Shown: piece after piece, positions 18,240-23,246 of the stretch
Position numbering within the stretch: position 1 is the stretch's first letter
How the letters are laid out: the number at the start of each line of letters is the position of its first letter
Assembly (NCBI GenBank): GCA_017549125.1
Contig: JAFYVL010000002.1
Coordinates: forward strand, 1 to 58,981
Direction of reading: 5' to 3'
DNA from: Oscillospiraceae bacterium
GTDB lineage: Bacteria > Bacillota > Clostridia > Oscillospirales > Oscillospiraceae
DNA: 58,981 nucleotides
Notes under the pieces: generated by a model
Told to the model about the DNA's origin: nothing
Database searches by the model: none
What the model saw: only the letters and a program-made list of their open reading frames with translations
Program-made: the position numbers and the translations under genes

Positions 18240-18935
18240 CTATAACGACTGCATAAGTTCCGTGGCGGATGCATAGCGGCTATCGGGGTCGATGCTGGTG
18301 CATTTTTGCACGATCTTCCCTGCCCTGCCCTTTGCCAAAACCTTACTGGGGTGCTGACCGGTGAGCATCACATTGAGCAGTACCCCAATGGCATAGATAT
18401 CGCTTCGCTCATCACTTTCACAGACACCAAGCTGTTCCGGTGAGGCATAGCCTATGGTGCCAAGCATCACCGTGTCCTTACTCTTGCCAGTAGGGATCCG
18501 GGAAGCATTCAAGTCGATCAGCTTCACCGTTCCGTCGGGCGCAATCAAAATGTTTTCCGGTTTGATATCCCGGTGAATAATTTTGAGGTTATGCAGGCTT
18601 TGAACCGCCTTGCAAACACCCATCACCACTTTTTTGGCGCCCTCATAGGTGTACCGTCCCGCCACGTCCGCCACGGAGATGCCATCAATATATTCTTCCA
18701 GAACGATATGTCCATCCTGGCACAGGATGCTGTCCAGCACCTCAGGCAAATTCTCATGGGAGCAGGTCTTCAGCCATTCATAGGCCGGCACAGGCGTGTG
18801 GTACTGCTTGGCGATCAGATCTTTTTCCAGGGTCTTATGGCGCAGACGCATGACCCTGGCACCGTTTTTATTGGACAGGACACTGATCAGCCGATACTGC
18901 TCCCAAAGGCTTTGCAAATACGCTTCACATTTCAT
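18240..18935 (-). CDS. Small cytoplasmic Ser/Thr protein kinase
   Basis: 231 residues, only the kinase domain: no transmembrane helix and no PASTA repeats. The invariant Lys is Lys43 (IAKQY), the catalytic loop is HRDIKPENIL at 121-130, and the Mg-binding DFG motif reads DLN (141-143), keeping the Asp. GTIGYASPEQLG is the activation segment, with SPE in place of APE, and DERSDIYAIGVLL follows. Lys, HRD Asp and the Mg-binding Asp are all present, so it is probably active. It starts one base after the uvrB stop, so it is the last gene of the hydrogenase-trx-uvrB operon. It faces the XRE-lipoprotein operon tail to tail. Substrates are unknown. Confidence 0.9.
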   Translation of the reverse strand: MKCEAYLQSLWEQYRLISVLSNKNGARVMRLRHKTLEKDLIAKQYHTPVPAYEWLKTCSHENLPEVLDSILCQDGHIVLEEYIDGISVADVAGRYTYEGAKKVVMGVCKAVQSLHNLKIIHRDIKPENILIAPDGTVKLIDLNASRIPTGKSKDTVMLGTIGYASPEQLGVCESDERSDIYAIGVLLNVMLTGQHPSKVLAKGRAGKIVQKCTSIDPDSRYASATELMQSL

Positions 18936-18936
18936 A

Positions 18937-20898
18937 TCATTGTCCCCGCAGTTCGATAATTTGGTCGCGCAAGATGGCGGCGTATTCGTACTCCATCATT
19001 CTTGCGGCTTCCTTCATCTGCTTTTCCAAACGGGCAATTTCCTTCTCCTTCTCCGCCTTGGTCATCTTCACTCCAGTGCGACCCTTGCGTTCGGCAGTGG
19101 GCGAAGAAATTTCAATCAAATCACGAATGGATTTAATAACGGTTTTCGGTTCAATACCATGAAGCTGGTTATATTCGTCCTGGATCTTTCGACGTCGTTC
19201 CGTTTCGCTGATAGCCGCCTGCATAGACGGTGTGATGCGATCTGCATACATCACAACCAAACCATTGGCATTACGGGCGGCTCGGCCAATGGTCTGGATC
19301 AGGCTGGTCTCCGATCTGAGGAAACCTTCCTTATCTGCATCCAGGATAGCAACCAAACTGACCTCCGGTAGATCAAGGCCCTCACGGAGCAGGTTGATGC
19401 CGATTAGAACATCAAATTTCGCCATGCGCAGATCCCGGATGATCTCCATCCGTTCCATGGCACCGATATCGGAGTGCATATAGCGCACACGGATACCGGC
19501 CTTTTGCAGGTAGACCGTCAGATCCTCTGCCATCTTCTTGGTCAGCGTAGTGACCAAGACACGCTCTTCCTTGGCGGTGCGTTCATTGATCATACCGATC
19601 AAATCGTCGATCTGGCCGTCAATGGGGCGAACCTCCACAATGGGGTCCAGCAAACCTGTGGGACGTATCACCTGCTCCACCGTCTGGGCAGACCGGGTCT
19701 GTTCATACTCGGCCGGTGTGGCAGAAACATAGATAGCCTGGTTGATCTTGCTGTCAAATTCCTCAAAATTTAGTGGGCGATTATCGTATGCAGAAGGCAG
19801 ACGGAAACCATAGTTTACCAGGGCATCCTTACGGCTGCGGTCACCTGCGTACATGGCTCTGCATTGGGGCAAGGTCACATGGCTCTCGTCTACGATCAGC
19901 AGAAAATCCTCGGGGAAATAATCCAGAAGGGTTGTAGGCGGTGTTCCGGGTTCACGACCCTGGATCACTCGGGAATAATTCTCAATGCCTGTACAGAATC
20001 CAATTTCTGTGAGCATTTCCAGGTCATAGGCTGTACGCTGGGAAATGCGCTGTGCTTCCAGCAGTTTATCCTGACTGCGGAAGAATTCCACCTGCTGGTC
20101 GCATTCCTTACGGATCTCCGCCATGGCACGTTCCAGCTTTTCACGGGATGCCACATAGTGACTGGCCGGATAAATGGCAATGTGGTCGATATAGCGCTCC
20201 ACCATGCCGGTTACCGCATTGATCTCAGAAATTCGATCGATCTCATCCCCAAAAAACTCCACACGAATGGCACGTCCTGTCCAATAGGCAGGATAGACCT
20301 CCAGAGTATCACCACGGACACGGAATTTATTACGGGAGAAATCAATGTCATTACGCTCGTAACGAATCTCGGTCAGCTTCTTTAGGATGCCATCCATCGG
20401 CCGCTCTTGTCCCACACGAAGGGAGATCACCATGCTGCGATAGTCAATAGGGTCACCCAGACCATACAAGCAGCTTACAGAGGACACCACGATCACATCC
20501 CGCCGTTCAAACAGCGCCGCTGTGGCACTATGACGCAGACGGTCGATCTCCTCGTTGATGGCGGAATCCTTTTCGATATAGGTATCTGTGTGGGCAATAT
20601 ACGCTTCCGGCTGATAGTAATCGTAATAGGATATAAAATACTCTACCGCATTGTCCGGGAAGAATTCTCGAAACTCAGAACAAAGCTGAGCGGCCAGCGT
20701 TTTATTGTGCGCCAGCACCAGGGTGGGTCTATTGACCTTTTCGATCACCGATGCCATGGTAAAGGTCTTACCGGAGCCGGTAACACCCAACAGAACCTGC
20801 TCACGCAAGCCCATATCCACACCCTGGCTCAGTAGCTCAATGGCTTGAGGCTGGTCGCCGGTAGCCTGATAGGGTGATACAAGTTTAAATTGATCCAC
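18937..20898 (-). CDS. uvrB: UvrABC excision nuclease subunit B
   Basis: Damage-verification helicase of nucleotide excision repair. 653 residues from a GTG at 20898 ([20 protein letters not shown]), with GGAAGGGGG as ribosome site; an upstream in-frame TTG at 20916 would include that site in the coding sequence. Walker A GVTGSGKT, the [11 protein letters not shown] beta-hairpin, and a C-terminal UVR domain ([20 protein letters not shown]) are present. It is 26 bases downstream of thioredoxin and directly upstream of the kinase. uvrA and uvrC are not in the window. Confidence 0.97.
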
Positions 20899-20924
20899 GA
20901 CGCAGCCCCCTTCCAAAGTAATGA

Positions 20925-21230
20925 TTAACCAATAAACTGGAGAATATCGTCCTTGGGTCTGAAGCCGATGATTCTCCCCTGTTCCTTACCATCTTTAAAC
21001 AGGATCATGGTGGGAATATTCACCACCTGGTATTTGGCCGCCAGGATGCCGCTCTCATCCACATTGATTTTGCCGATCAGAACATCTTCCCGTTCCTGTG
21101 CGATCTCTTCCAGAACAGGAGCTACCATCTTACAAGGGCCGCACCAATCTGCATAGAAATCGACCAACGCCAGGCCTTGTGCCTGCAGCACTTCTTTTTC
21201 AAAATTTTCCACATTTAATTTCATCAGCAT
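20925..21230 (-). CDS. trxA: Thioredoxin
   Basis: 101 residues with active site WCGPCKM (Cys30, Cys33), the cis-Pro segment [13 protein letters not shown], and normal thioredoxin length. GAGGAAT lies upstream of the ATG. It starts 12 bases after an FTR-like gene, which suggests that it may be reduced from ferredoxin; no NADPH thioredoxin reductase gene is in the window. Confidence 0.95.
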
Positions 21231-21242
21231 AACGGATTCCTC

Positions 21243-21443
21243 TCAATCCTTAGATTTGAAATAGAGCATACAGTGACAGTAGCCCTCAAATTCCGGATCG
21301 GCAATTTGATCCTTGAACTCCTGGCACATGCACTTAAATTCCGGCAATTTGGGAATTCTACAGGGACAATAACCATCCTTCGCCTTTAAGCCTTGGCGCA
21401 CATGCTCTACGATTTCTTTATCTTCGTTTAGTCTGACTGCCAT
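21243..21443 (-). CDS. Ferredoxin:thioredoxin reductase catalytic (beta) subunit-like protein
   Basis: 66 residues from the ATG at 21443, chosen because AAAGGAG lies 8 bases upstream; an ATG eight codons earlier would include that site. Six cysteines form three CxC pairs: CPC (26-28), CMC (38-40), CHC (56-58). The plant/cyanobacterial catalytic subunit has CPC-x16-CPC-x8-CHC, so the pairing is alike but the spacing differs. The family carries a [4Fe-4S] cluster next to a redox disulfide and passes ferredoxin electrons to thioredoxin. It is directly upstream of thioredoxin and downstream of a hydrogenase with ferredoxin-like domains. No separate FTR alpha subunit gene is nearby. It could be a non-FTR Fe-S protein, but the context favours FTR. 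Confidence 0.8.
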   Translation of the reverse strand: MAVRLNEDKEIVEHVRQGLKAKDGYCPCRIPKLPEFKCMCQEFKDQIADPEFEGYCHCMLYFKSKD

Positions 21444-21483
21444 GTATTCCACTCCTTTATATTGCATTTATATGGGGTTTTTA

Positions 21484-22992
21484 TTACTCTTCCAGCATTT
21501 TAGCAAGATCTTTATATTCGCTATCCAGAGGACTTTCCTTTTGGGCTTCATTTTGATAACGACCCACAACGGCAGATGCCAACTCTACAGGCAACAATGT
21601 ACCTGCGCCAGCCACACAGCCACCGGGACAGGCCATGCCTTCCAGCAGATGACCCTTATACTTTCCGGCCTTAGCCAGGGTCATCAATTTACGGCACTCT
21701 CGCAGGCCTTCTGCGCGGGCGGTTTTTACCTCCATATCCGGGTTGGTCTCGTGGATCATATTTTCCACAGCCTTGGCTACACCGCCGGATACCGCAAAAC
21801 CACGCCCCTTTGCAGAAGCTTCATTCAGATCGTACATGGGCTCAATGGTCTCAAAGTCAATTTCCTTGGCTTCAAACATGCCTTGCAGTTCTTCAAAGGT
21901 CAACACAAAGTCCACATCAGAGCGAATATCCTCACGGATGGCTTCCAGCTTCTTCGCAGCACAAGGGCCAACGAATACCACCTTGCAATCCGGGTATTTC
22001 TGCTTCATAAGGCGAGCGGTAAAGACCATGGGTGTCAAGGTCATGGAGATCTTGTCGGACTCTCCCGGGAACAGTTTATGCACCATGGAATGCCATGCCG
22101 GACAACAGGATGTGAGCATATAATCCTGCTGGGAAGGCACTTTCTCCACAAAGTCCTTGGCTTCCTCCATGGTACACAGATCTGCACCCACCGCGACCTC
22201 GACAATACGGGCAAAGCCCAGCTGCTTCATGGCCGCAATGAACTTACCGGGGGTGGAATGCTTACCGAACTGACCGATAAAAGCAGGCGCAACAATAGCA
22301 ATCACCTTATGTCCCTGCAAAATAGACTGAATGACCTGGAAGATCTGTCCCTTATCCACAATGGCACCAAAGGGGCAGCTGACCAGGCACTGGCCACAGG
22401 CGACGCACTTATCCTGGTTAATGGTGGCTCTGCCATTGGCATCGGACTCGATGGCATCCATACCACAGGCCGCCGCACAGGGTCGCTCCAAATGAACAAT
22501 GGCATTATAGGGGCAAGCCTTTGCGCACTTGCCGCAACGAATACACTTATCCAGGTCAATATAGGAGCGGTTATTCTTAAAGGTGATAGCATCCTTGGGA
22601 CATACCTTTTGGCAGGAAGCTGCCAGGCAGTTTTGGCAATAATTACTGACCTTATATTGGTTAGTGGGACAGCCGTGGCATGCATAGGGAATGATATTGA
22701 TCAGCGGAGGGGTATAATACTGCTCCGCAATGGCCGCCTCGTCCATACCCTCGGTCATCATATGCCGGGTCTGGATGGGGTTAATATTCAAACCCATGGC
22801 CAGACGAACACGTTCGCTGGCAATGGCTCTTTCCAAAAACACAGATTCACGGTGCAAAGGCTGGTCTCCGGGGACGATAATATAGGGTAGGTCATCCACA
22901 CCCTCATAACCCTTGCCGGAATAGGCCATTCGTGCAACCTCTGTAAATACTTTTTTTCTGATATCCGTAATCAGAGACGGAATTCCTCTCAT
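21484..22992 (-). CDS. Monomeric [FeFe] hydrogenase, group B-like
   Basis: 502 residues. The N-terminal half has Cys-rich Fe-S regions: CHGCP (105-109) with YCQNCLAASCQKVCP, then two ferredoxin clusters, C150-C153-C156-C160 and C196-C199-C202-C206. The H-cluster domain has L1 TSCCPAW (294-300), L2 GPCAAKK (342-348) and L3 EGMACPGGC (451-459). The GPC form of L2, instead of MPC, is what I associate with group B enzymes. Likely reaction: reversible H2 formation with reduced ferredoxin, in the cytoplasm; the physiological direction of group B is uncertain. Maturation genes hydEFG are not in the window. First gene of the operon; strong AGGAGG. Confidence 0.9.
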   Translation of the reverse strand: MRGIPSLITDIRKKVFTEVARMAYSGKGYEGVDDLPYIIVPGDQPLHRESVFLERAIASERVRLAMGLNINPIQTRHMMTEGMDEAAIAEQYYTPPLINIIPYACHGCPTNQYKVSNYCQNCLAASCQKVCPKDAITFKNNRSYIDLDKCIRCGKCAKACPYNAIVHLERPCAAACGMDAIESDANGRATINQDKCVACGQCLVSCPFGAIVDKGQIFQVIQSILQGHKVIAIVAPAFIGQFGKHSTPGKFIAAMKQLGFARIVEVAVGADLCTMEEAKDFVEKVPSQQDYMLTSCCPAWHSMVHKLFPGESDKISMTLTPMVFTARLMKQKYPDCKVVFVGPCAAKKLEAIREDIRSDVDFVLTFEELQGMFEAKEIDFETIEPMYDLNEASAKGRGFAVSGGVAKAVENMIHETNPDMEVKTARAEGLRECRKLMTLAKAGKYKGHLLEGMACPGGCVAGAGTLLPVELASAVVGRYQNEAQKESPLDSEYKDLAKMLEE

Positions 22993-23005
22993 ACCGAAAT
23001 CCTCC

Positions 23006-23017
23006 TGAGGTACCTCA
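23006..23017. promoter_or_regulatory. Palindrome in the 5' leader of the hydrogenase operon
   Basis: TGAGGTACCTCA, a perfect 12-bp palindrome lying between the predicted transcript start and the Shine-Dalgarno sequence and touching the latter. It could be an operator or a small RNA fold that masks the ribosome site; chance is possible for 12 bp. Confidence 0.4.
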
Positions 23018-23030
23018 AATATTTCTTTTT

Positions 23031-23059
23031 ATTATACCGAAAAAGCCACTATCCGTCAA
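23031..23059 (-). promoter_or_regulatory. Promoter of the hydrogenase-FTR-trx-uvrB-kinase operon
   Basis: Minus strand: TTGACG (23054-23059), 17-nt spacer, consensus TATAAT (23031-23036). It lies 38 bases before the start codon. Confidence 0.8.
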
Positions 23060-23169: not shown

Positions 23170-23246
23170 CCGGACTTAGCGAAGTTTGGTATCGCGCTTG
23201 ATTTGGGTTCAAGAGACCGTGGGTTCGAATCCCGCAGTCCGGACCA
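23170..23246 (+). tRNA. tRNA-Pro (anticodon TGG)
   Basis: 77 nt with encoded CCA. Acceptor arms CCGGACT / AGTCCGG with discriminator A; anticodon stem CTTGA / TCAAG around loop TTTGGGT, giving anticodon TGG; T-arm GTGGG-TTCGAAT-CCCGC. All stems pair. It is a single tRNA gene with its own promoter and terminator. Confidence 0.95.

Follow-up and report, generated by a model that had tools for sequence, protein, structure and literature searches.

The DNA analysed here is a stretch of 58,981 nucleotides (hereafter the window) from an Oscillospiraceae bacterium (assembly GCA_017549125.1, contig JAFYVL010000002.1, positions 1 to 58,981). Its minus strand carries a run of genes that encode a group B [FeFe] hydrogenase, a small protein resembling the catalytic subunit of ferredoxin-thioredoxin reductase (FTR) and a thioredoxin (Trx), with gaps of 40 bp and 12 bp between them. 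The hydrogenase (21484..22992, minus strand) is a monomeric group B1 enzyme of 502 aa; the FTR-like protein (21243..21443, minus strand) is a minimal catalytic subunit of 66 aa with the cysteine pattern CPC-x9-CMC-x15-CHC; and the thioredoxin (20925..21230, minus strand) has 101 aa, contains the WCGPC motif and matches TIGR01068 with 116.1 bits against a cut-off of 96.8. The hydrogenase ATG is preceded by AGGAGG and the ATG of the FTR-like gene by AAAGGAGTGG, the latter open reading frame (ORF) itself being open to 21467, and neither the 40 bp nor the 12 bp gap holds a terminator-like site. Upstream of the hydrogenase lies a promoter-like site of the sigma-70 type (TTGACG-17-TATAAT, 23031..23059, minus strand) that matches 11 of the 12 consensus bases and is the best of five such sites in 3 kb. 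Their number is not above chance (4.3 +/- 2.2 in shuffles), so the case for a promoter lies wholly in the quality and position of the site at 23059-23031.

These coordinates confirm the operon layout described in an earlier note on this DNA (promoter, hydrogenase, 40 bp, FTR-like gene, 12 bp, thioredoxin). What that note missed is that beyond trx the run extends into uvrB (18937..20901, minus strand), which lies 23 bp 3' of trx and starts with GTG at 20901 (TTG at 20916 being an alternative possibility), and then into a protein kinase gene (18240..18935, minus strand). The upstream boundary of the run is a divergent tRNA-Pro(TGG) gene (23170..23246, plus strand). Because the run continues into uvrB and the kinase gene, a shared transcript is little evidence for a shared function.

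A minimal FTR subfamily

The earlier note had proposed that the 66-residue protein is homologous to the FTR beta subunit, and profile searches bear this out. The Pfam family FeThRed_B (PF02943) is its sole Pfam match, all 52 members of an alignment that includes it (A2) match this family at E values no higher than 0.1 and as low as 1.7e-6, and hhalign aligns the 52 minimal sequences, the window's among them, with a profile of six longer clostridial FTRs and the sequence of PDB 1dj7 over 56 columns (probability 96.4%, E 1.3e-9), bringing all three CxC pairs into register. These six cysteines are invariant across 28 and 52 aligned sequences. These profiles identify the 66-residue protein as a divergent catalytic subunit of FTR, and an FTR fold with a [4Fe-4S] cluster would be expected from homology. 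It shares with the FTR catalytic (beta) subunit of 1dj7 the three CxC pairs, the last being CHC, and differs from it in length (66 versus 117 residues) and in cysteine spacing (9/15 versus 16/8), so that the altered CxC spacing seen earlier also stands. Since it lacks the spacing CPC-x16-CPC-x8-CHC, we do not file it as an FTR of the plant or cyanobacterial type. A further difference from FTR beta is that a Pfam scan of 15 ORFs of the window found no alpha subunit, the other ORFs and the rest of the genome lying outside that scan. Identity with a flavin thioredoxin reductase was considered and excluded: the protein has 66 aa, as against about 300 aa for those FAD-binding proteins, and only FeThRed_B is found in it by Pfam. 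Longer clostridial FTR-type proteins (L223-L228) belong to the same Pfam family and likewise have three CxC pairs; they differ in spacing (14/12), in the last pair (CYC or CFC) and in their open frames of 165-217 aa.

Relatives with the short architecture are widespread. A class-wide search placed FeThRed_B above its cut-off in 24 of 196 genomes at 25 places, six of the longer type and 19 minimal, and the spacing of the minimal ones is 9/15 in 18 cases and 9/14 in one. For the analysis of gene neighbourhoods we assembled 138 FTR loci, which may include one species repeatedly and cover 30 of 44 places, 80 of at least 589 stretches and 30 of 45 places (28 of these new) in the respective searches; 137 of them have the spacing 9/15, the remaining row not having been parsed. 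Viral contigs also encode relatives (139 stretches in IMG/VR). Among the best 80 of the 139 (L268-L347), to which all viral counts below refer, the first loop is 9 throughout and the second is 10 (39 members), 14 (26), 11 (10) or 15 (5). Three of four phage examples pass the FeThRed_B cut-off (26.6, 26.3 and 23.8 bits) and one, L268, falls below it at 20.0 bits. By these searches, the minimal FTR is a subfamily spread over Clostridia and many phage contigs, with a cysteine spacing that is nearly fixed in cells. Minimal FTRs also occur on three contigs titled Treponema or Spirochaetia (L083, L084 and L108), where their nesting among clostridial sequences in a tree suggests transfer or mis-binning.

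Gene neighbourhoods of the FTR and the hydrogenase

The pairing of FTR with thioredoxin, which the earlier note had seen in the window, recurs: a Trx gene lies on the same strand within 250 bp on either side of the FTR gene in 92 of the 138 loci, the window included. As judged from this recurrence, FTR and thioredoxin form a real unit. Other redox genes recur beside it, as seen in crude ORF clusters of neighbours whose Pfam domains were checked on examples. A flavodiiron protein is encoded 5' of the FTR gene in 15 loci and 3' in one, most of them Ruminococcus-like and some named R. flavefaciens, and Trx follows downstream in 14 of the 15; glutathione peroxidase (GPx) and MarR occur together near FTR in seven of the 138 loci. 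The run of flavodiiron protein, ftr and trx found in Ruminococcus flavefaciens and relatives (L070, L106, L107, L117 and others) is likely an oxygen-defence operon.

The hydrogenase, taken by itself, is of a familiar kind. It scores 630.4 bits against TIGR04105 (FeFe_hydrog_B1; cut-off 450) and carries TSCCP, GPCAAK and EGMACPGGC at positions 294, 342 and 451, which we take to be the H-cluster motifs. No match to the maturase HydG was found in the window's own genome, which is 71.5% complete, so this absence has little weight. Another genome bin, G364, encodes three group B hydrogenases (contigs C52, C61 and C16) with 86-89% identity to the window's. The earlier note had called the role of group B enzymes unsettled; this is dated, because a 2025 paper, in the part available, reports that in gut bacteria these enzymes produce H2 and re-oxidise the ferredoxin that comes from pyruvate:ferredoxin oxidoreductase (PFOR) (PMC12578642), and the accessible text of a 2022 paper cites an extreme bias of CpIII, a group B enzyme, towards H2 production (PMC9431212). 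The hydrogenase of the window would thus be an ordinary group B enzyme, expected by analogy to oxidise ferredoxin and evolve H2 and so to drain the ferredoxin pool. Both in score and in H-cluster motifs it resembles group B enzymes such as CpIII and those of Bacteroides, and its sole oddity is the downstream ftr-trx pair. In the portions of the literature available on group B hydrogenases with a thioredoxin gene cluster, the only mention of thioredoxin concerned a group A3 enzyme.

That oddity is not repeated elsewhere in our samples. A hydrogenase homologue occurs near the FTR gene in none of the 137 other FTR loci (with flanks of at most 1.5 or 8 kb) and in none of 29 other FTR loci of the window's genus, where 30 of 59 places were examined. 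Conversely, neither ftr nor trx lies within up to 1.5 kb of the hydrogenase gene in any of 38 other hydrogenase loci (30 of 90 places in one sample and 10 of 79 in the genus sample), seven of which have less than 600 bp downstream and two of which (L040 and L173) are too short to contain ftr. Across 101 genomes of the genus, a hydrogenase match is present in 76 (including one match of 41%, G409, and one partial match, G412), FTR in 56 and both in 43; read by eye, the two genes are adjacent in one of these 43 (the window), 16 kb apart on one contig in another (G372) and on different contigs in 41, where contig ends could hide adjacency. Co-occurrence, with shared descent uncorrected and the samples overlapping, shows no association in the genus (odds ratio 1.2, p 0.82) and an odds ratio of 0.51 (p 0.08) in a sample of the taxonomic order, which becomes 0.37 (p 0.013) in order genomes at least 90% complete, the opposite of what coupling would suggest. 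The earlier note had inferred that hydrogen or ferredoxin redox state is coupled to protein-thiol redox through this gene order, and had itself named a gene order unique to one genome as speaking against that idea; in the samples examined the order is found only here, and the coupling gains no support. We reject a conserved hydrogenase-FTR-Trx system, since the order is absent at all other loci examined and the genes do not co-occur. The position of the hydrogenase beside ftr-trx looks, from these comparisons, like a chance local arrangement of genes and a one-off.

Partners and counterparts of the minimal FTR

Genomes were binned by their best match to TIGR01292 into those with a protein like the NADPH-dependent thioredoxin reductase (NTR; E up to 1e-72), those with an intermediate match (1e-72 to 1e-30) and those with none, so that the classes below are score bins read from best or listed matches, in overlapping samples uncorrected for descent. 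In the order sample the bins (NTR-like/intermediate/none) hold 26/0/17 FTR genomes and 104/28/22 others; the intermediate class is thus the best match in 0 of 43 FTR genomes and 28 of 154 others, and among genomes without an NTR-like match the split between intermediate and none differs by FTR with p 2.4e-5. The family sample gives 31/2/12 and 61/33/11 (p 8e-5), and its genomes at least 90% complete give 22/1/3 and 46/22/3 (p 0.02). If the presence of NTR is disregarded and one genome whose NTR is split is omitted, the matches listed include one of the flavin-type ferredoxin-reductase class (150 to 225 bits) in 1 of the 45 genomes with FTR and in 39 of the 105 without (p 1.5e-6). Under the motif rule for flavin-type reductases (HRRxxxR/GxGxxA) given in the available part of a paper (PMC10880999), the intermediate proteins that were fetched, with HRRxxxR missing in nine of nine and a loose GxGxxA pattern missing in eight of nine, look like flavin-type ferredoxin-dependent thioredoxin reductases (FFTR). 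On these counts, genomes with the minimal FTR tend to lack FFTR-like enzymes, and vice versa. The clostridial FFTR have the same proposed job, from ferredoxin to thioredoxin, and also occur in trxA-trxB operons (PMC10880999, in its accessible text); they differ in being flavoproteins, of about 280-290 aa in the examples, and rarely share genomes with the minimal FTR.

The suggestion that FTR acts in place of NADPH thioredoxin reductase holds at most in part. Seventeen of 43 FTR genomes in the order sample and 12 of 45 in the family sample have no TIGR01292 match better than E 1e-30, and in the order sample neither an FFTR-like nor an NTR-like match is found in 15 of 36 nearly complete FTR genomes. 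An NTR- or AhpF-like protein is nevertheless encoded in 26 of 43 and 31 of 45, and we reject FTR as a general replacement of the NADPH reductase, since many FTR genomes carry such a protein as well; in G372 the NTR match even starts about 90 bp past the FTR match on the same strand. The pattern is a good fit to an FTR that would do the work of FFTR rather than replace NTR in general. The window's own genome contains an AhpC-like gene followed by one for an AhpF-like protein in which a reductase part precedes a terminal thioredoxin domain (L209:1810-4004); among the TIGR01292 matches listed, this fusion is both the best and the sole one from that genome. At another locus (L222:3-2661) an NrdD-like protein with a C-terminal glutaredoxin-like stretch is directly followed by a TrxB-like protein without HRRxxxR.

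The viral relatives keep different company. A gene of the NrdD type, of anaerobic ribonucleotide reductase, lies near FTR in 63 of the 80 viral loci, one of the NrdG type in 64 and both in 60, with the end of NrdG no more than 62 bp upstream of FTR in 54 loci and up to 600 bp upstream in 57. A small glutaredoxin-like gene is found near FTR in about 39 of the 80, together with NrdD and NrdG in about 37, and upstream of NrdD in all of the roughly 38 loci that have both, these three counts being approximate as the cluster includes some unrelated ORFs. The complete operon of glutaredoxin-like gene, NrdD, NrdG and FTR is exemplified by L283:322-3189. NRDD is matched with 278, 301 and 302 bits in L283, L294 and L331; NrdG is confirmed by phrog_626 in L283 and by a Fer4_12 domain in all three; and against the Pfam cut-off of 22.9 the glutaredoxin-like protein passes in L331 (26.4), just misses in L294 (22.6) and has no match in L283. 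Neither NrdD nor NrdG was seen in 13 of the 80, including the five of highest identity to the window, among which L270 resembles sequences of the genus and may be host DNA.

The matching GenBank records of phages number only seven; they derive from human faeces or belong to phages of Bacteroides. Gp5 of crAss001 is annotated as a 'putative ferredoxin-thioredoxin reductase' and, in the available part of the paper, is classed by its authors as auxiliary (PMC6235969). Like the phage proteins of PHROG 38239, a family that PHROGs lists as of unknown function and that the proteins of the window, L283 and L294 match, gp5 is of minimal size; it has 38% identity to the L283 protein over 94% of the latter, and it differs in lying among tRNA genes, with no nrdD annotated in the 8.5 kb seen. 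In cells, nrdD was found near FTR in one of the 138 loci, using phage queries at E 1e-5 that could miss a distant nrdD: there (L073:1149-5742) genes for an NrdG-like protein, an NrdD with a C-terminal thioredoxin-like part, a TrxB-like protein, FTR and Trx run in one direction. In Methanosarcina barkeri a ferredoxin:disulfide reductase with NrdH reportedly feeds the class III enzyme; the likeness is an FTR-type catalytic domain feeding NrdH and NrdD, and the archaeal protein differs in having further domains. From the gene order, the phage FTR most likely passes electrons of host ferredoxin via the glutaredoxin-like protein to the anaerobic ribonucleotide reductase; no independent hint that the minimal FTR would reduce disulfides of thioredoxin-fold partners is stronger than this operon. 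Literature searches, with most subscription journals outside their reach, found no paper on a phage NrdD-FTR operon, and nothing on FTR catalytic subunits or on ferredoxin-disulfide reductase.

Origin of the gene order and its interpretation

The hydrogenase has up to 89% identity to homologues of the genus and uvrB 79-90% to its congeners where matches are full length, which marks both genes as native to the genus. In congeners radC (identified by Pfam in one locus) lies directly 5' of uvrB in 14 of 19 loci, about 860 bp away in one, and was not seen in four; in the window no radC is found by tblastn at E 1e-5, and hydrogenase, ftr and trx occupy the place upstream of uvrB (20901). In a tree of 66 columns with bootstrap values not settled, which included 22 of the 29 new genus loci, the window FTR clusters with five FTRs of other Clostridia (L061, L062, L064, L066 and L095; support 100/85), apart from all 22 congener FTRs, 18 of which group together (97/78). 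The GC content is 43.3% in ftr and 46.4% in trx, and 50.8% in the hydrogenase gene and 51.5% in uvrB. Tree placement, GC content and the radC-uvrB order of congeners suggest another clostridial lineage as the most likely source of the ftr-trx pair, and their simplest account is that the pair was acquired and came to be placed, with rearrangement, between native genes.

We think it likely that the gene run is best explained as a portable minimal FTR-Trx module that was acquired and placed behind an ordinary group B hydrogenase. The minimal FTR would take electrons from reduced ferredoxin via its predicted [4Fe-4S] cluster and would then reduce the disulfide of the thioredoxin encoded by the next gene, both steps being suggested by homology and gene pairing. 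In Clostridia the pair would serve as a module beside varied redox genes, such as those for a flavodiiron protein or for glutathione peroxidase with MarR; in phages FTR alone, with a glutaredoxin-like protein, would sit behind anaerobic ribonucleotide reductase. In the window the pair, derived from another clostridial lineage, would have come between native hydrogenase and native uvrB, and co-transcription would let hydrogenase and FTR draw on one ferredoxin pool, a dedicated coupling being without support.

Several observations pull the other way. Taken alone, the 66-residue protein scores 19.7 bits against FeThRed_B, below the cut-off of 22, a gathering score that is a scoring threshold rather than a structural trait and that is exceeded by relatives sharing the 9/15 spacing; when the protein or an alignment of it (A1) was searched against PDB sequences, no meaningful match emerged. 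In 46 of the 138 loci an adjacent Trx is absent, further off or cut away by contig ends, and no Trx lies near FTR in any of the 29 other loci of the genus, where most FTR genes are solitary (as viewed in 12 loci). In the tree, itself short and unsettled in its bootstrap, the main genus group does not include four of the 22 congener FTRs. HRRxxxR is present in only one of three NTR-bin proteins checked, so the NTR-like bin is impure. Among family genomes at least 90% complete, no reductase at all is found in 3 of 26 with FTR and 3 of 71 without (p 0.34), and in the genus NTR is above the cut-off in 44 of 56 FTR genomes and 28 of 45 without FTR (p 0.08). Shared descent and overlapping samples limit the co-occurrence and reductase comparisons alike.

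The alternative nearest to the earlier note is a dedicated circuit from H2 or ferredoxin to thiols, in which the hydrogenase feeds or relieves the ferredoxin pool used by FTR. A single promoter, short gaps free of terminator-like sites and the use of ferredoxin by group B enzymes (PMC12578642, in the part available) agree with it, as does the suggestion, in the accessible text of a Clostridioides paper, that a flavin-type Trx reductase could be supplied with ferredoxin renewed in spores by PFOR and an iron-only hydrogenase (PMC10880999). We nevertheless regard such a circuit as unlikely: the order recurs at none of the other FTR or hydrogenase loci, the genes show no positive co-occurrence, co-transcription is unspecific in a run that extends to uvrB and the kinase gene, and an enzyme that favours H2 production as strongly as CpIII is a poor source of reduced ferredoxin (PMC9431212, as far as available). 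It is also improbable, in our judgement, that the minimal FTR serves chiefly for ribonucleotide reduction, with electrons passing from ferredoxin through FTR and then Trx or an NrdH-like protein to NrdD of class III, both in cells and in phages. The 60 viral loci with NrdD and NrdG types (about 37 of them with the glutaredoxin-like gene too), the cellular locus L073 and the Methanosarcina analogy speak for this role, and the single nrdD match among the cellular loci, together with flavodiiron and GPx neighbours that indicate oxygen defence, against it; the role is compatible with the favoured acquisition of a portable module, which would then have several clients. That the order is an assembly or binning artefact seems highly improbable. 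The genome bin is fragmentary (71.5% complete, 93 contigs) and its ftr does not cluster with congener FTRs, but the flanking hydrogenase and uvrB genes (up to 89% and 90% identity) are typical of the genus, and the junctions are tight, with ribosome-binding sites and intact frames.

To return to the portable module, a broader generalisation is possible, which we offer tentatively and hold to be somewhat doubtful: the minimal single-subunit FTR (about 60-66 residues) may be a mobile ferredoxin-to-disulfide plug-in of anaerobes that replaces flavin-type ferredoxin reductases and is attached to needy redox enzymes (for oxygen or peroxide reduction, or in a hydrogenase operon), and that in phages powers dNTP synthesis from the fermentative ferredoxin of the host through an NrdH-NrdD-NrdG-FTR operon. 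The hydrogenase link is an apparent one-off and should not be taken for a new H2-thiol system; the wider find is the minimal FTR subfamily in Clostridia and in phage contigs, where it adjoins anaerobic ribonucleotide reductase. If the proposal is true, a very small disulfide reductase would link ferredoxin directly to protein thiols in many Clostridia that live by fermentation, including some in which no flavin thioredoxin reductase is recognisable, and the phage FTR, if it works as proposed, would explain the reductant of the phage-encoded anaerobic ribonucleotide reductase.

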